Shown here one piece after another: positions 20,584-49,939 of a stretch of DNA of 64,000 nt. The notes under the pieces are model-generated. The model was not told the DNA's origin, searched no databases, and saw only the letters and a program-made list of their open reading frames with translations. This DNA comes from Pagrus major (lineage: Eukaryota; Chordata; Actinopteri; Spariformes; Sparidae): the NCBI RefSeq assembly GCF_040436345.1, contig NC_133235.1, positions 23,956,660 to 24,020,659 on the forward strand, read 5' to 3'. Position 1 is the first letter of the stretch; the number at the start of each line of letters is the position of its first letter. The position numbers and the translations under genes are program-made.

Positions 20584-22953
20584 CAGGGTGCAGTCACTTT
20601 TCGGCAGGCCCTGCCGAAAAGTGACTGCACCCTGTAAGTCCTTATTGCAAGGAGTGATATTGACCAAATTCACTGTACATGCACCTGGTTTCCTCTACTA
20701 TTAATGCTGAAAAGACAGAGAATGTAACCCCTCCCAATCCAGAGTTACAGGGTGCAGTCACTTTTCGGCAGGGCCTGCCGGAAAGTGACTGCACCCTGTT
20801 GCAAAACATTTTCAATGAATATACATGAAAGACATGTAATTGTGCCTTGTTTGTACTTGTAATGTTCTCAATAATAATGATAATAATAATATAAAGGAGT
20901 GATATTGACCAAATTCACTGTACATGCACCTGGTTTCCTCTACTATTAATGCTGAAAAGACAGAGAATGTAACCCCTCCCAATCCAGAGTTACAGGGTGC
21001 AGTCACTTTTCGGCAGGGCCTGCCGGAAAGTGACTGCACCCTGTAACTCTGGATTGCAAGGAGTGATATTGACCAAATTCACTGTACATGCACCTGGTTT
21101 CCTCTACTATTAATGCTGAAAAGACAGAGAATGTAACCCCTCCCAATCCAGAGTTACAGGGTGCAGTCATTTTTCGGCAGGGCCTGCCGGAAAGTGACTG
21201 CACCCTGTAAGTCCTTATTGCAAGGAGTGATATTGACCAAATTCAATGTACATGCACCTGGTTTCCTCTACTATTAATGCTGAAAAGACAGAGAATGTAA
21301 CCCCTCCCAATCCAGAGTTACAGGGTGCAGTCACTTTTCGGCAGGGCCTGCCGGAAAGTGACTGCACCCTATAACCCTGGATTGCAAGGAGTGATATTGA
21401 CCAAATTCACTGTACATGCACCTGGTTTCCTCTACTATTAATGCTGAAAAGACAGAGAATGTAACCCCTCCCAATCCAGAGTTACAGGGTGCAGTCACTT
21501 TTCGGCAGGGCCTGCCGGAAAGTGACTGCACCCTGTTGCAAAACATTTTCAATGAATATACATGAAAGACATGTAATTGTGCCTTGTTTGTACTTGTAAT
21601 GTTCTCAATAATAATGATAATAATAATATAAAGGAGTGATATTGACCAAATTCACTGTACATGCACCTGGTTTCCTCTACTATTAATGCTGAAAAGACAG
21701 AGAATGTAACCCCTCCCAATCCAGAGTTACAGGGTGCAGTCACTTTTCGGCAGGGCCTGCCGGAAAGTGACTGCACCCTGTAAGTCCTTATTGCAAGGAG
21801 TGATATTGACCAAATTCACTGTACATGCACCTGGTTTCCTCTACTATTAATGCTGAAAAGACAGAGAATGTAACCCCTCCCAATCCAGAGTTACAGGGTG
21901 CAGTCACTTTTCGGCAGGGCCTGCCGGAAAGTGACTGCACCCTGTAACTCTGGATTGCAAGGAGTGATATTGACCAAATTCACTGTACATGCACCTGGTT
22001 TCCTCTACTATTAATGCTGAAAAGACAGAGAATGTAACCCCTCCCAATCCAGAGTTACAGGGTGCAGTCATTTTTCGGCAGGGCCTGCCGGAAAGTGACT
22101 GCACCCTGTAAGTCCTTATTGCAAGGAGTGATATTGACCAAATTCAATGTACATGCACCTGGTTTCCTCTACTATTAATGCTGAAAAGACAGAGAATGTA
22201 ACCCCTCCCAATCCAGAGTTACAGGGTGCAGTCACTTTTCGGCAGGGCCTGCCGGAAAGTGACTGCACCCTATAACCCTGGATTGCAAGGAGTGATATTG
22301 ACCAAATTCACTGTACATGCACCTGGTTTCCTCTACTATTAATGCTGAAAAGACAGAGAATGTAACCCCTCCCAATCCAGAGTTACAGGGTGCAGTCACT
22401 TTTCGGCAGGGCCTGCCGGAAAGTGACGGCACCCTGTAACTCTGGATTGCAAGGAGTGATATTGATCAAATTCACTGTACATGCACCTGGTTTCCTCTAC
22501 TATTAATGCTGAAAAGACAGAGAATGTAACCCCTCCCAATCCAGAGTTACAGGGTGCAGTCACTTTTCGGCAGGGCCTGCCGGAAAGTGACTGCACCCTG
22601 TAAGTCCTTATTGCAAGGAGTGATATTGATCAAATTCACTGTACATGCACCTGGTTTCCTCTACTATTAATGCTGAAAAGACAGAGAATGTAACCCCTCC
22701 CAATCCAGGGCCTGCCGGAAAGTGACTGCACCCTGTAACTCTGGATTGCAAGGAGTGATATTGATCAAAGTCACTGTACATGCACCTGGTTTCCTCTACT
22801 ATTAATGCTGAAAAGACAGAGAATGTAACCCCTCCCAGTCCAGAGTTACAGGGTGCAGTCACTTTTCGGCAGGCCCTGCCGAAAAGTGACTGCACCCTGT
22901 AAGTCCTTATTGCAAGGAGTGATATTGACCAAATTCACTGTACATGCACCTGG
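20584..22953. repeat. Tandem array of a 164-bp inverted-repeat (MITE-like) unit
   Basis: About 13 units are arranged head to tail. Each unit begins GCCTGCCGGAAAGTGACTGC and ends with the inverse, GCAGTCACTTTTCGGCAGGC, giving terminal inverted repeats of about 40 bp that continue into GTAACTCTGGATTG / CAATCCAGAGTTAC. Unit junctions therefore form 51-bp near-perfect palindromes, starting at 20584, 20748, 20993, 21157, 21321, 21485, 21730, 21894, 22058, 22222, 22386, 22550 and 22849, with a half-deleted junction near 22708. Most spacings are exactly 164 bp. Two are 245 bp because of an inserted AT-rich arm. Repeated 66-75-residue minus-strand frames are artefacts of the array. Confidence 0.93.
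20799..20890 (-). repeat. Right arm copies (20799-20890 and 21536-21628)
   Basis: These are inverted copies of the left arm, TTGCAAAACATTTTCAATGA onwards, ending in an ATAATGATAATAATAAT tail. The two copies are 737 bp apart, which equals one 245-bp plus three 164-bp intervals, so a multi-unit block was duplicated. Confidence 0.9.
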
Positions 22954-43499: not shown

Positions 43500-43668
43500 G
43501 TCACCCAGGTGGAACCAATCCCAGTTAATTAGAGCACAATCAATCAGCCCACCTTCTGCAGCTTCTGATAGGCTGTTGCAGCACCTGCTGGCAGGTGATG
43601 TCTCAGATCAAATAGATGGGGCAGAACATCACCTCTCAGCTTCTAACATTTGCGGGAGTCAGGACAGA
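43500..43668 (+). promoter_or_regulatory. Upstream region of ZP-N gene A with E-box cluster
   Basis: Three CAGGTG/CACCTG E-boxes lie at 43506-43511, 43582-43587 and 43592-43597, within 165 bp of the ATG. A similar cluster precedes gene B. No TATA box is obvious. Function is inferred from the shared arrangement only. Confidence 0.35.
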
Positions 43669-46199
43669 ATGATGCTCAAAGGAAAGAGGAAAAGCCCCAC
43701 TTTTTACCTGGCTGCTGTGATTCTCTCGTGTTATTTGGCGCAGTTGACAGACTGTTATCGACTGACGAAAACAGAAAGACGAGAAGGAAGGAAAGAAGCG
43801 TACGCAGGCAAGACGATAGCTCTCCAAGAGGGGAAGATTGTGTTCGGGAGAGCTTTTGAGAGCGGGTCACAGCTCATAGACGGGACCAAGAACCCCTCAA
43901 ACGCTTCTGTGGAGGATGAATCTACTTATCAGGCAGACTCTGCAGGTAGAAATCTTTTAATAACCATGTATTGCACAGGCTACTTTACAGTTTCATAACT
44001 TCTAAAGGTATCACATTGAGTTAGGCTACACTAATTGTAATGTTCTGTTTGGATAAAAGGACACACTTCGGCAAAAGGACAAACTAGTGATGCAGAAGCA
44101 TTATGGAGGCACATGAATCCTTCCCTCCAGTGCGGTGCAGACCAGATGAGGTTCAGAGCAATGGGACCAGGATCGTCCTCATTTACAGTGGCACAAGGTG
44201 AATTAACAATGCAGTCTTTTTGTTTACAATGCAGGTATTCCCACCAATGATTACACACACACACTCATTGAGATTTTCTTTTTCTCTCCACACAGGAAGT
44301 GCCCCTCCAATGCCTCTGACCCAGATCCCTTCCAGCTGTGGCTACAACATGCAGAGGAACGCTCTTGGTTTTTCCATGTATGCTCCCTACGGCGGCTGCA
44401 ACATGGTTCAACAGGTAATGTTTGAAATGCAATGGTTTTAAGTGTGGAATCATGTGATGTAACCAAGAGCTGGAACGACTTGATCTGAAACTTTTGATAA
44501 CCAATTTGTTAGTTAGCGCTACAATTTAATATGGAACTTAAATGCTTACAATAATCCATTAAGTGGTTTGAGTAATCTAGTGTCCAAAGTTTCTTGACTC
44601 CTGACGGTAAACTGAATGTCTTTTGGATTTGGACAATGCAATTTAAGACAATCTCAGGCTTTAAGGAAAGCTTGCCATTTTTCACCATTTTGGCATTTTA
44701 TAGACTAGTAATTGAGAAAATGGTAATGATTTAAAATAATCATTGGTTAAGCTCAATCTTCAGCTTCTCAACTTCAACCAACTGTTTTTTTTTTTATTCT
44801 GGTTTTTACTAATCATTCAAGCAAATCTGAAGATTAAAGGTGCAATATGTACAAATTGAACACCTGTCAAACTGCTGATTGTAGCTACATTAGCAAGTAA
44901 GCTCAGTTAACTGTGCAACTAGGTCATATTGGCTGACTCTGCCTGGACTTGGAGTGTAGGGGTGGTTTTTTCTACAGGCCTATCGCTACTTGAGGTACAA
45001 AATGGCTAGGGGCTAGCTGGTTGGCATGCTAACTTGAATAGATGCCTTGACATCAAAACGTATCTTGTTAATTTTCAACATTAACTTTTTCACATATTGC
45101 ACTTTTATGTTTATTTTTAAAATGAGAATTGATAGATGACAATAACTAACACTTTTTTTCATATCCCCAGGGTGGAAGTTATGTGCTCCCAATGCATTGG
45201 CAGGGAATCCCAGTCTCCCTCTGGTGTCCAAAACCTGCAGCACAACCCACTACTGCAGCACCCACCACTGAAGCAAAACACCCAGAAATGCCTAAATTTC
45301 CACATTATCCTCTCTACCCTCCTTTCTATCCTCTTCCAGCCACTCCAGCACCAGCCACAACAGCTCCAAAGCCACAAATGCCTCTCTATCCTCCTTTCTA
45401 CCCTCCTTTCTATCCTCTTCCAGTTACTCCAGCACCAACCACAACGGCTCCAAAGCCACAAATGCCTAAATTTCCACCATATCCTCTATACCCTCCTTTC
45501 TATCCTCTTCCAGTTACTCCAGCACCAGCCACAACAGCTCCAAAGCCACAAATGCCTCTCTATCCTCCTTTCTACCCTCCTTTCTATCCTCTTCCAGTTA
45601 CTCCAGCACCAACCACAACGGCTCCAAAGCCACAAATGCCTAAATTTCCACCATATCCTCTATACCCTCCTTTCTATCCTCTTCCAGTTACTCCAGCACC
45701 AACCACAACGGCTCCAAAGCCACAAATGCCTAAATTTCCACCATATCCTCTATACCCTCCTTTCTATCCTCTTCCAGTTACTCAAGCACCAGCCACAACA
45801 GCGGCAAAGCCACAATTCCCTAAATTTCCACCATATCCAATCTACCCTCCTTTCTATCCTCTTCCAGTTACTCCAGCACCAGCCACAACAGCTCCAAAGC
45901 CACAAATGCCTCTCTATCCTCCTTTCTACCCTCCTTTCTATCCTCTTCCAGTTACTCCGGCAACTCCAGCCACCAAACCTCCTCCCCCAATATTTCATTT
46001 GCCTCCCTTCCCTTACCCTCTTCCTGTGCCAGTAGGCTTTCCTGCCTATCCCTATCATCCAACTACAGCGCCGACCACTGCAGCTCCGACCACTGCAACG
46101 ACTAAGAAACCAGACGTCCCAACAACTGTACCTCTACCTGATCATACTCACCGACATGGCCACTATGCTTACCCATATCCTCTCCATTTCCATGGCTAA
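43669..46199 (+). CDS. Secreted ZP-N-like protein with proline/tyrosine repeat tail (gene A)
   Basis: Exons 43669-43945, 44060-44197, 44296-44414 and 45171-46199 join in phases 1, 1 and 0 for 520 residues. I do not recognise the gene. A hydrophobic segment (FYLAAVILSCYLAQL) gives a signal peptide ending near residue 29. Residues about 110-197 form a four-cysteine module: Cys117 (SLQCG), Cys153 (IPSSCG), Cys173 (YGGCN) and Cys197 (LWCP), with the SYVLPMHW stretch between the last two. The spacing and aromatic/GC pattern resemble a ZP-N domain. No ZP-C half follows. From about 218 there are eight 28-30-residue repeats of two kinds (MPKFPPYPLYPPFYPLP… and MPLYPPFYPPFYPLP…) linked by TPAPTTTAPKPQ-type spacers. 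The end is Thr-rich, then His-rich (HTHRHGHYAYPYPLHFHG). No transmembrane segment is seen. An egg-coat, cuticle or other extracellular-matrix role is inference. Confidence 0.88.
44835..45107. mobile_element. MITE in intron 3 of ZP-N gene A
   Basis: The left end TAAAGGTGCAATATGTA and the right end CACATATTGCACTTTTA are inverted copies with one or two mismatches, and the element is about 273 bp. It resembles the TTAAAGG-type MITE ends at 12377 and 57571. Confidence 0.75.
45288..45960 (+). repeat. Coding minisatellite in ZP-N gene A (about 84/90-bp units)
   Basis: Eight in-frame units of 84 or 90 bp encode the PYPLYPPFYPLP-type repeats. Order by type is K, L, K, L, K, K, K, L, where K contains KFPPYP and L lacks it and has an extra YPPF. 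Neighbouring units are nearly identical at DNA level, a sign of recent expansion by unequal exchange. Because units are multiples of three, other frames also stay open and are not real. Confidence 0.93.
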
Positions 46200-46216
46200 T
46201 GAGATGAATTGATTCT

Positions 46217-46222
46217 AATAAA
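46217..46222 (+). terminator. Poly(A) signal of ZP-N gene A
   Basis: AATAAA lies 18 bp after the stop codon, a very short 3' UTR. The DNA from here to 47830 contains no gene that I can support. Confidence 0.8.
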
Positions 46223-46774
46223 TGGTTTGGAAAAACATTAAGTGAATCTGTCAATTTCTTTGTACTTGTTTACCCTGCAACTGAACCAGAGAATGAAGTT
46301 GTCACACTTCAGGCTTAAAAACAAGAGGTTATTGAGCAAATAACTAAAAACAAGCGCTTGCACTTATTAGTTGGCCTAAACGTTTTTGCTTTAAAGAAGC
46401 TTGTTCTGGCAAGAGTAAAGGTGCTTTTCTATATGGATCACTTGTGGTAAGTCTTGAATGAAAGGTCCTGTATTTTAAAAACTGGATTTACAGAAGCAAA
46501 CGATGTCCACATGGTGGCACCATGGTTCATCCATATCTACTTGAGTCTCAAATTTGACATGACATCACAAGAGATTTTGTATATTATCTTCAGTCTAAAG
46601 AACTGTTAATATGACTTTGCAAACAAACATGTTGGCATTTAGCAGGTGTGAGTAAAGCTCTACTAAACTGTACAACTACATTTTGCCACTTATTAACCAG
46701 AAGCCAACCTGCTGTATTCTGCTTTGTGCCTTCCCTCCTGATTTTGGTTTTGTCAAAAGATCTTGAAAGGAGTT

Positions 46775-47090
46775 GGCAAAAAGTACTTAAGTAAAAGGAG
46801 CAATACTACAGTGTAGAAACATTCTTATAAGTAATTGTATTTTTTTAAATGAAAGTACAAAACACTGTAGGGATCAGATTATACTCTAAAGTATTAATTA
46901 TTCAGAATGTCCTATTTCAGAATAATTTTATTAGAATTGACGCATTAATATGTAGCTGATTTTAACTACTCCCTCAATGATCAAAGTTTTCTTAGTCTAT
47001 AAGTATTACATGATGTATTTGATTATATGTTGTGTATTAAGCTGAATCTTCACTCATAACTAAAGTTATGAACTAAAACTGAAAGAAATT
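46775..47090. mobile_element. Inverted copy of dispersed TACTTAAGTA repeat
   Basis: Begins AAAGTACTTAAGTAAAAGGA, followed by CAATACTACAGTGTAGAAAC and an AGAATGTCCTATTTCAGAAT block. This is the opposite half of the family seen at 16560-16990. Confidence 0.55.
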
Positions 47091-47439
47091 ATAATGATTA
47101 AAAAAAAACCCCTAATAGGTGACACCCTGAACCTGCAAAGAAAAAGATCTCATCAGCAGTGAACAAAGCAAGAAATGTGATATTCCAAGGAAAGTCAAGT
47201 ACGCTGTCAAGCTTCACAGGAAATTCAGTCTGAATCCTGTGGTCACATGCTTGTTTTCAGTAAAGAAATGAATAGATTGATTTGAGTTTGACTTTTTTTT
47301 TTTTTGGGAAACAGCAAAAAGTCTTCATTAAGCCTTTTTGATCAACAAAAAATTCAAATGCCTAAATAATAATTATTACAGAATTACTGAGTACATAGAA
47401 GAAAAGGATGTAAATACAATTCCACATGTTGTACAACTG

Positions 47440-47500
47440 CTGTGTCAAGTCAGTTTTATTTATTTAGCCTAAAATCACATATTTGCCTGTTTAATTCCCT
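47440..47500. mobile_element. Short retroelement-tail fragment
   Basis: CAAGTCAGTTTTATTTATTT followed by AGCCTAAAATCACAT resembles a widespread fish repeat tail (…TTTATATAGCCCAAAATCAC). Confidence 0.4.
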
Positions 47501-47829
47501 CTATCCTAAAACCCGTGTGTATTTTAAACTTGTCTTTCTCATTGCTATTGCCATTATTCACAGCACTGACCATGAAATGCATTGTCCCTGGTCCGAGTCA
47601 GGCTTTTGACCTTTGTAGCATGTAATTCCCCGTCTCTCTCCCTCTGGTTTCCAGTCATCTCTGCTTAAAAAAGCAGGCCCAACCCATTATTCCTAATGTA
47701 AGTGGAGTTATACGTATTATCCTATAAAATGTAATTAGTCACATAACCTGACTGAAACATAAATATACCTACAAAACAAATTCAAGCTGCCTTTATTGTC
47801 CTGAGGCAACGAATTAGACGTCAGAGGCT

Positions 47830-48003
47830 CTTTACAAGGCCACCTGTTGTGATCTAAGTGAACACAGGTGCAAGCTGCACCTGAAGTTGCATCTAATTGG
47901 TTGATTACCTGGTGCCAATATGTGCCGGCGTTAAAACTTCAGTTGTTCTGTGTCATAGCAAGCAAGTGCTCTCCACCTGAGCAGCAGGACGTGCATCTCC
48001 AGT
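47830..48003 (+). promoter_or_regulatory. Upstream region of ZP-N gene B with E-box cluster
   Basis: Four CACCTG/CAGGTG E-boxes lie at 47841-47846, 47865-47870, 47878-47883 and 47974-47979. The ATG follows at 48004. The same E-box class is clustered before gene A. Confidence 0.35.
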
Positions 48004-49813
48004 ATGGCAGGTGAAGATGGAAGGGGATGCTGGTCACCTCAAGCTGTAGCAGTCATATTAGTCCTGAGCTGTTTTGCCCAGAGTGTAACTTGTTTTAGCT
48101 TGCGATGGCTGAGTGGAAATGTTAAGCAGGACGAGCTAGCTAGTGAGGCTACAGTGATGGAAGTAAGGGCTGGAAACATTCTCTTCAATGGGAAAGAGCT
48201 CAAGTCCCAGTCAGGGTCTGCCTTTGCTGCGGCCGCAGGGAATGATGTATTGCTGCAAACTAACTTGGATGAATCAGATGGCTCAGGTAAGATATTGCTG
48301 CCTAATTATCTGCTAAACCCAATGGATATGGTCAGTATTGAGTTTGTATCTGGGCTTTACATTTAAAAGGGATGTTGGAGCCGACGTTTCAGCCGGAGGA
48401 CGCCTTGGCCAATGAAGAAGCATGGAGGCGCTTAAATCTTACCCTGCACTGTGGTCCGAACAAGATGAAGTTGAAAGCAATGGGACCTGGAGCTTCTCAC
48501 TTAAAGCTAGACATGGGTATTGAGACACAACCAAGCTTGTATAATGTCAGTTTATGTTGCCGCACTAAGCGCATGATAGTTTGGCATAGAATAATGGTCC
48601 CTTTCTCCTCCTTGCAGGCGAGGCCAATCCCCTGCCTTTGACCCAGGTGCCTGAAAACTGTCACTTCTCAGTGAAGCAAACTGCACTCGGTCTTGTTTTG
48701 GAGGTTCCCTACAATGGATGCAATGTGACACAAGAGGTAGGACTTTACTCTTAATTGGGTTAACTGGCTCAAAATTGTTTCTGTCAGTATGTTTGTTTTC
48801 TTGAAACTTGAATTATGCTCATTGGGATGAGTATTATAATCTCAACTGCTTGTACACTGTTTCAGGATGGCAACTACTTGTTGCCAATGCGTTGGCTGGA
48901 CACTCCAGTTAAATTCACCTGTCCCATGTTGACGAGTTCTGCTGCGACATCTGCTTCGACGACCCTCAAGCCTGCTCAGCTGCCATGGCAACTTCCTGTC
49001 CCTCACGGACTTCGGAGCCTGAATCGTCGTAAGCGTCAGGCATACCAGACCCTGCCAATCTACGATCCTCGCCATCCATATTATCGCTATTGGTATTATT
49101 ATAATTATTATTACTACTATTACTTGTATATGATGCGACAAACGCCAGCACCTAGCACTGCTACAACTACTGCCAACCCTGACACTACTACATCTACAGT
49201 CAAACCCCCCTACATGTACTACCCTTACTATTACCCCTATTACTACTACTATCCCTATACCCAAGTGACTACTACAGCGCCACCAACTACCACTGCCAAT
49301 TCTACTGGTGGAATGACCACGACAGCCGAGACAACAGCACCTCCCATGACTTCGTCTGCTCCCGCTCCCACGCCAGCTCCCACGCCTGCTCCTACGGTTG
49401 CCCCCACGCCGGCCCCCACGCCCGCTCCCACGCCGGCCCCCACGCCCGCCCCCACGCCGGCCCCCACGCCCGCTCCCACCCCCGCTCCCACGCCAGCCCC
49501 CACGCCCGCTCCCACGACTAAAACATGCACAACAAAGCCCAGCGATGGCGTATATCCAGGCACGATGAAACCGTACGTTCCTTTTGACCAGCTCCAGTTC
49601 GTTCCATATGTTGAATACAACAAGGCTGGTAACGTGCCGTACGACCTGAAAAACATGCCTCAAGCTGGCTACAAATCTGGACCAGGGGCTCGAGCACAGC
49701 CACCCCCACATCCAGGCTTCAGCCACTGGCAACCTGCACATTGGTTTCCCCAACAAACAGGCCAAGACTATCATCAGTTCGGCTGGCAAAATCTGCTGCC
49801 TAAACCGGCCTAA
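48004..49813 (+). CDS. Secreted ZP-N-like protein with Tyr-rich and TPAP-repeat tail (gene B)
   Basis: Exons 48004-48286, 48370-48516, 48618-48736 and 48866-49813 join in phases 1, 1 and 0, the same as gene A, for 498 residues. A signal peptide is visible ([17 protein letters not shown]). The four-cysteine ZP-N-like module has Cys122 (TLHCG), Cys158 (PENCH), Cys178 (YNGCN) and Cys202 (FTCP). The shared stretches [18 protein letters not shown] and [10 protein letters not shown] align with gene A. NLT and NVT are possible N-glycosylation sites. A furin-type RRKR site at 237-240 separates the module from a tail with tyrosine tracts ([11 protein letters not shown] and [12 protein letters not shown]), Thr-rich spacers and about a dozen TPAP units at 49362-49516. 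Gene A has no equivalent furin site. I do not recognise the family. Cleavage and matrix assembly are inference. Confidence 0.88.
49362..49516 (+). repeat. TPAP-coding 12-bp minisatellite
   Basis: CCCACGCCCGCT/CCCACGCCGGCC-type units are repeated in frame about twelve times. It is much more G+C-rich than the surrounding exon, so length variation is expected. Confidence 0.93.
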
Positions 49814-49822
49814 CTCCAGATG

Positions 49823-49904
49823 GTAAGGACGACTTGCAATTCATGTTTGATTTGGTATTTTAAGAATTAAGTTTGTCAACCATAACTTTGTTGCTTTCTT
49901 TCAG
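49823..49904 (+). other. Intron in the 3' UTR of gene B
   Basis: A donor ATG|GTAAGG ten bases after the stop codon and an acceptor CTTTCTTTCAG ending at 49904 predict an 82-bp intron. The poly(A) signal AATAAA at 49934-49939 follows. Confidence 0.6.
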
Positions 49905-49933: not shown

Positions 49934-49939
49934 AATAAA
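49934..49939 (+). terminator. Poly(A) signal of ZP-N gene B
   Basis: AATAAA 120 bp after the stop. From here to 52020 no gene is supported. The stretch has a poly-T run at 50174-50197 and otherwise plain AT-rich sequence. Confidence 0.8.

Follow-up and report, generated by a model that had tools for sequence, protein, structure and literature searches.

Introduction

Free ZP-N domains, as distinct from the ZP-N half of a ZP module, are described in ZP1, ZP2, ZP4 and ZPAX (PMC9154058), and the published view, in the parts of the literature cited here, is that extra ZP-N repeats belong to ZP2 and ZPAX. Dimers of ZP1 are linked through a non-canonical cysteine, and the ZP-N1 element is said to be absent from the fish ZP1 homologues (PMC6626044). 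Proteins with a lone ZP-N, which include PLAC1, OOSP1-3, Papillote, CG16798 and carp ZP1, have been grouped by their resemblance to the ZP-N half of a ZP domain, taken as homology (PMC1479692). In medaka the first envelope layer is formed by ovary-made ZP proteins, and during hardening transglutaminase links mostly the Pro-Gln-Xaa repeats of the choriogenins ChgH and ChgHm (PMC10140178). Here we analyze a stretch of 64,000 nucleotides of Pagrus major DNA (the window), in which two tandem genes, gene 1 and gene 2, each encode a secreted-type protein with a single ZP-N domain and a long low-complexity tail.

We propose, with a probability of about 0.65, that gene 1 and gene 2 are tandem kin of a ZP1/ZP4-type protein without the ZP module, and that they encode oocyte-made accessory or cross-linking proteins of the egg envelope. 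An earlier note on this DNA had suggested a role in an extracellular coat or matrix, a suggestion that kinship, upstream E-boxes and a ZP3/ZPC-like neighbour would narrow to the egg envelope.

The locus shares features with several described systems. As in the ZP-N1 of ZP1/ZP4 (ZPB; Pfam PF22821, PDB 6GF6), a four-cysteine frame precedes a Pro-rich region, an arrangement also seen in bird ZP1, whereas the window genes are devoid of the trefoil, the ZP module and the extra cross-linking cysteine, and their tails are richer in Tyr and Thr than in Gln. Like PLAC1, OOSP1-3, Papillote, CG16798 and carp ZP1 the two proteins are secreted and have one ZP-N and no ZP-C; as far as the available descriptions go, they are set apart from these by matching the free ZP1/ZP4 type and by their tails of about 300 residues. 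With the teleost choriogenins ChgH and ChgHm (ZPB) they share kinship to the ZP1/ZP4 class and long Pro-rich repeats, but the choriogenins keep the ZP domain, carry Pro-Gln-Xaa repeats and are made in the liver (PMC10140178). What appears to be new is that a free ZP-N of the ZP1/ZP4 type stands alone and is joined to an extended Pro/Tyr tail. In the literature consulted, mostly titles and the openings of abstracts, we recognised no description of such a protein in fish; database annotation may already read ZP1-like.

A lone ZP-N domain like that of ZP1/ZP4

Gene 1 (43669-46199, 520 amino acids) and gene 2 (48004-49813, 498 amino acids) are both located on the plus strand and are separated by 1.8 kb. 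The coordinates and features proposed earlier for both genes were confirmed: each has four coding exons with cumulative phases 1, 1 and 0, GT..AG at the internal borders and one terminal stop, and exon 3 has the same length (119 nt) in both. The exons and the elements following them are:

43669..43945, plus strand: gene 1 exon 1 (phase 1), coding for the signal peptide (by eye) and the stretch before the domain, up to near YQADSA
44060..44197, plus strand: gene 1 exon 2, start of ZP-N with Cys1; phase 1
44296..44414, plus strand: gene 1 exon 3 (phase 0), core of the ZP-N including Cys2 and Cys3
45171..46199, plus strand: gene 1 exon 4, last part of the ZP-N with Cys4 (until about 45230), Pro/Tyr/Thr tail, His-rich end and stop
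46217..46222, plus strand: gene 1 AATAAA signal
48004..48286, plus strand: gene 2 exon 1 (phase 1), coding for the signal peptide (by eye) and the stretch before the domain
48370..48516, plus strand: gene 2 exon 2, start of ZP-N with Cys1 and an NLT sequon; phase 1
48618..48736, plus strand: gene 2 exon 3 (phase 0), core of the ZP-N including Cys2 and Cys3
48866..49813, plus strand: gene 2 exon 4, last part of the ZP-N with Cys4 (until about 48925), furin-like site, tail with Tyr runs and TPAP array, and stop
49823..49904, plus strand: probable short intron in the gene 2 3' untranslated region, GTAAGG...TTTCAG
49934..49939, plus strand: gene 2 AATAAA signal, downstream of the probable intron

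Both proteins have a hydrophobic N-terminus, assigned as signal peptide by eye, followed by 75-90 residues without a known domain, the four-cysteine domain, placed at residues 104-200 of gene 1 and 106-205 of gene 2, and the long tail; no membrane anchor was seen by eye in either. The cysteine spacing of 36, 20 and 24 residues is the same in gene 1 (C117, C153, C173, C197) and gene 2 (C122, C158, C178, C202), with additional cysteines in the leader of both and at C404 in the gene 2 tail. The shared pattern GPG…LPLTQ…C…ALG…GC…LPM.W…C stands overall, apart from the LPLTQ of gene 2 being MPLTQ in gene 1.

The only Pfam family matched by either gene is PF22821, ZP1_ZP4_Ig-like (E-value 4.9e-4 for gene 1 and 1.5e-5 for gene 2), so that the ZP-N assignment of the earlier note is supported as ZP1/ZP4 type, although each gene taken alone falls below the Pfam cut-off. 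An alignment of six rows was made from the N1 domains of gene 1, gene 2 and four relatives in the same genome (see below). All four cysteines, which in a domain of this class would pair 1-4 and 2-3, are invariant in this alignment, PF22821 matches six of the six rows at a loose limit of E 10 (best 4.3e-8), and when its profile was compared with the PDB (177,635 sequences) the best match was 6GF6, the ZP-N1 of chicken ZP1, with an E-value of 3e-4; filamin-B (0.49) was the one further match when E-values up to 10 were admitted. The assignment is based on this profile and on the relatives because searches with the single sequences are too weak.

The domain resembles the free ZP-N1 of ZP1/ZP4 and not one half of a ZP module. 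That neither gene has a ZP-C half, with PF00100 matching nowhere in the window when E-values as high as 1 are allowed, is therefore not odd for the domain itself. The unusual point is that the trefoil and the ZP module of ZP1/ZP4 are missing from both proteins. In the window extended downstream we found no trefoil-like pattern on the plus strand from 40000 to 88941 or on the minus strand from 1 to 88941, using a pattern that did find the trefoil of one relative, C1, and missed a candidate read by eye in another, C23.

Relatives in the same genome

The pair had been regarded as unrecognised, but it is not an orphan family. The genome of the fish itself was searched (786 Mb in 25 contigs; 12 matches at E up to 10 with the gene 1 query and 12 with the gene 2 query), and both queries found the same four relatives, at C6:19.09 Mb, C21:10.20 Mb (C21b), C23:7.64 Mb and C1:19.57 Mb. 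Hand-spliced, these have phases 1, 1 and 0 across the first ZP-N, then 1 and 0 across a second ZP-N, and Pro/Tyr/Gln-rich tails of 309 to 1207 residues, counted in C1 to its splice donor and in C23 to the stop of its exon. Three of the relatives score above the PF22821 cut-off of 28 bits (40.9, 33.7 and 48.9) and the fourth reaches 22.4, while the second ZP-N of C21b and C23 gives a weak match to the Pfam family Ig_ZP2_N, below its cut-off (E-values 2.7e-4 and 0.005).

Two of the relatives have ZP-module exons behind them. Behind C1, Pfam finds in hand-joined translations a trefoil (6.7e-9), a ZP-N (9.6e-15) and a ZP-C (5.9e-20), and there are two further ZP-N-like units, of which one matches weakly (0.0024, below cut-off) and the other is unmatched. 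Behind C23 there is a same-strand ZP-C exon above cut-off; reading by eye had also suggested a trefoil and a modular ZP-N at this place, but Pfam did not confirm them, and we claim only the ZP-C. From open frames, phases and splice sites, C1 and C23 would each be a single long gene. The C6 and C21b relatives (568 and 1511 amino acids) both terminate in a stop, and within about 11-13 kb behind them no ZP-C exon and no same-strand trefoil-like pattern was found.

Like ZPAX and ZP2, the relatives carry free ZP-Ns, here in series; unlike ZPAX and ZP2, the C1 relative has a trefoil, which in tongue sole is reported to be present in ZPB only (PMC12155184). C1 also has more free ZP-N repeats than we found in the ZP1/ZP4 literature consulted, and, as read from their sequences, the genes here speak against the absence of ZP-N1 for at least one fish.

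C1 (G000:C1:19564900-19575900) would combine a trefoil and a ZP module with a Gln-rich tail and with free ZP-Ns, of which two are clear and two more are possible; C21b (G000:C21:10194500-10213900) reads as two ZP-N domains with a giant tail of PFYPNPFYPQP repeats. Among the remaining matches, L022 (C9) and L023 (C21:32.56 Mb) from the gene 1 search and L011 (C5) from the PF22821 search look like chance, and L009 (C7), also from the PF22821 search, is another ZP-N-like exon with a different pattern. A search of a phage collection gave no match.

Kinship of the pair and selection

The N-terminal parts of the two proteins, up to the CP after Cys4, align with a BLOSUM62 global score of 284 against a maximum of -21 in 500 shuffles, and the two domains are sisters in a domain tree of 13 rows (support 97/95). 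Since the front halves align beyond chance and the domains are sisters, tandem duplication is the simple reading of the pair. Over 91 ZP-N codons the ratio of non-synonymous to synonymous substitution rates (dN/dS) was 0.44 (NG86), 0.45 (maximum likelihood) and 0.46 (LWL85), all below 1, with the reservation that the value is rough because the synonymous rate is 0.7-1. Between copies of equal length in the gene 1 tail repeat we counted 9 synonymous and 15 non-synonymous codon differences, a count that is uninformative about selection because repeat copies are homogenised.

Both genes match just the front of their relatives, and no trefoil-like pattern was found behind them, the sole ZP-C exon found there belonging to a separate ZP3/ZPC-like gene. 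These observations would also fit non-functional remnants of a broken full-length ZP1/ZP4 gene, as would the YN00 estimate of dN/dS over the same codons, which at 0.72 is below 1 but not far from neutral. We find this quite improbable: the frames of 520 and 498 codons are open, the splice sites are intact, polyadenylation signals follow, each domain has kept the four conserved cysteines, three of the four methods give 0.44-0.46, and E-boxes are present upstream. Open frames, splice sites and dN/dS together disfavour a pseudogene.

The protein sequence changes fast between the two copies, and sperm binding has been linked to free ZP-Ns in ZP2, ZP4 and VERL (PMC9154058, PMC6626044). Sperm-interacting or micropyle proteins, in which the ZP-N would be a receptor as in ZP2 and VERL and the tail an anchor, are for these reasons an alternative that may overlap with the envelope role. 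It appears rather unlikely, since fish sperm enter through the micropyle (PMC12530800) and a coat-wide sperm receptor is not expected.

Upstream E-boxes

E-boxes of the form CACCTG, which is the form preferred by FIGLA, lie upstream of both genes:

43506..43597: ahead of gene 1, three E-boxes (CACCTG/CAGGTG) at 43506, 43582 and 43592
47841..47979: ahead of gene 2, four E-boxes (CACCTG/CAGGTG) at 47841, 47865, 47878 and 47974

In the 200 bp before the ATG of the six genes there are 3, 4, 2, 1, 1 and 1 such sites, which amounts to 12 in total with six of six genes represented; 1000 dinucleotide shuffles gave 1.03 on average and never more than 5. In background free of the repeat array and of positions 43-50 kb of the window, 11.9% of 852 stretches of 200 bp held one site and none held three. 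Counts for the remaining CANNTG forms and for control hexamers ranged from 0 to 3. The motif was picked after viewing the two window genes, and the four relatives, which were not used in the choice, have at least one site each (four of four, sum 5). The ZP3/ZPC-like neighbour gene has one E-box at -100. In mouse Zp1-3 the action of FIGLA depends on a conserved E-box within 200 bp (PMC1906760), and the upstream E-boxes look as expected for FIGLA-driven ZP genes.

Control by oestrogen in the liver, as for the choriogenins, was considered and is argued against by the absence of an oestrogen element, with at most one mismatch, within 3 kb upstream of gene 1 or gene 2; among the six genes there was one, at -1034 of C21b.

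CACCTG is not oocyte-specific and is also bound by other factors (E-proteins, SNAI/ZEB), which would leave room for secreted matrix proteins of another tissue, such as skin, inner ear, tooth or gut, that adopted a ZP-N. Lone ZP-N proteins outside eggs are known, for example PLAC1 in placenta (PMC1479692). Such an origin we consider unlikely, given that the closest kin found are ZP1/ZP4-type genes, two of them with ZP-module exons, that free ZP-Ns of this class have been identified in egg-coat proteins only, as far as the cited source goes (PMC9154058), and that a ZP3/ZPC-like gene is located nearby.

A tandem array at 20894-22953 of the window consists of a 164-bp unit in blocks of 3.9 and 6.6 copies that are about 96% alike, and the CACCTG count of the window as a whole is inflated because this array contributes to it.

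Genomic neighbourhood

SCHIP1, previously noted downstream of the pair, is present (Pfam SCHIP-1_C, E-value 3.2e-47 with a hand-joined translation). On the far side of SCHIP1, at about 20 kb from gene 2 and no longer within the window, there follows a same-strand gene with ZP-N, ZP-C and its own start, which by eye reads as ZP3/ZPC-like; its ZP-C exon (C21:24028056, 56 bits) lies 21.6 kb after gene 2. Genome-wide there are 78 ZP-C matches in about 40 places as grouped by hand, so that about 0.0025 would be expected within 25 kb by chance. We take this as a hint, not proof, of an egg-coat neighbourhood.

Transcripts could in principle splice from within exon 4 into a downstream ZP module and so bypass the stops, giving full-length ZP proteins. 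The tail exon of C1 ends at a phase-1 donor and that of C23 has one at its end (phase counted by hand), and in gene 2 a GTAAGC at 49029-49034, inside the furin-like site of exon 4, would give a phase-1 donor, also counted by hand. This is very improbable for the pair, as there is no GT[AG]AG in gene 1 exon 4 and the only ZP-C exon found nearby sits beyond SCHIP1 in the gene with its own start; a full-length protein by way of that exon was rejected. The GTAAGC of gene 2 is a possible donor for an alternative splice form.

Intron 3 of gene 1 contains a dispersed repeat (window 44834-45000) with at least 39 other copies in the genome at 74-88% identity. Elsewhere, at G000:C4:37360549-37448288, seven ZP-C places follow each other at a spacing of about 11-17 kb, probably a tandem expansion of a ZP gene.

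Tails

Secreted-type proteins with a fast-evolving tail that looks cross-linkable, as proposed earlier, are supported, and the tails do differ as described, with Pro/Tyr repeats and a His-rich end in gene 1, and Tyr runs with a TPAP array in gene 2. Their elements are:

45282..45962, plus strand: gene 1 tail tandem array, 90/174-bp unit, e.g. KPQMPKFPPYPLYPPFYPLPVTPAPTTTAP
49019..49039, plus strand: LNRRKR|Q of gene 2, a furin-like site that separates the ZP-N from the tail
49361-49516, plus strand: gene 2 TPAP array with a 12-bp unit, accompanied by Tyr runs in the tail

The gene 1 tail contains 35% Pro, 13% Thr, 9% Tyr and 6.5% Phe, with KPQ recurring, and the gene 2 tail 20% Pro, 16% Thr and 11.5% Tyr. 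The RRKR of gene 2 is what we take to be a furin-like site.

Weighing the proposal

A number of results weigh against the proposed origin and role. The PF22821 scores of 21.0 bits (gene 1) and 25.8 bits (gene 2) are below the curated cut-off of 28, and single-sequence searches of the PDB gave no match for gene 1 and 6GF6 only as the fifth match, with an E-value of 0.92, for gene 2. The PF22821 search of the genome pointed to three places, none over the cut-off, and missed both window genes, because exons were searched apart. In the domain tree the pair forms the sole well-supported branch of 10 inner branches, which does not favour loss of the module over its never having been present. The YN00 estimate indicates weaker constraint than the other methods. 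At least three E-boxes per 400 bp occur elsewhere too, at 2.7% of the window positions including the repeat array, and the lack of oocyte specificity of CACCTG applies here as well. Regarding cross-linking, there is no fifth cysteine inside the ZP-N of gene 1 or gene 2, and with the non-canonical cysteine absent the known ZP1 disulphide cross-link cannot operate; Gln is low in the tails (2.8% in gene 1 and 5.4% in gene 2), unlike the Pro-Gln-Xaa repeats that are transglutaminase substrates.

On the direction of change, loss of the trefoil and the ZP module would be simpler than a short form that came first, because the domain class is known from ZP-module proteins only. Both proteins would then have kept the signal peptide, the free ZP-N1 and the Pro-rich spacer, while the trefoil and ZP module are gone, most simply lost.

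Proposed role in the egg envelope

If the two genes are indeed kin of ZP1/ZP4 that serve the envelope, the growing oocyte would make both proteins under an E-box factor such as FIGLA and then secrete them. The ZP-N could pair with ZP filaments or with the ZP-Ns of full-length relatives, which would retain the proteins in the egg envelope. The disordered Pro/Tyr/Lys/Gln tail may act as a spacer that can be cross-linked, by transglutaminase or through dityrosine, when the envelope hardens; on chemical grounds the Tyr runs of gene 2 could form dityrosine and the KPQ repeats of gene 1 could serve as cross-link sites. Cleavage at RRKR could release the tail of gene 2.

More tentatively, and at somewhat less than even odds, we suggest that a subfamily of ZP1/ZP4 origin has shed the ZP module to become soluble linkers, consisting of a ZP-N and a disordered tail, that do without the ZP1 disulphide, and that ZP1/ZP4-type proteins with at least two free ZP-Ns coexist with them, contrary to the published view. 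Six genes of one fish carry a ZP1/ZP4-type ZP-N1, as the single ZP-N in two of them and together with one or more others in the remaining four. These genes offer a natural means of testing how a free ZP-N works when no ZP module is attached, whether it docks, caps, bridges or binds sperm, and how fish envelopes acquired cross-linkable spacers.

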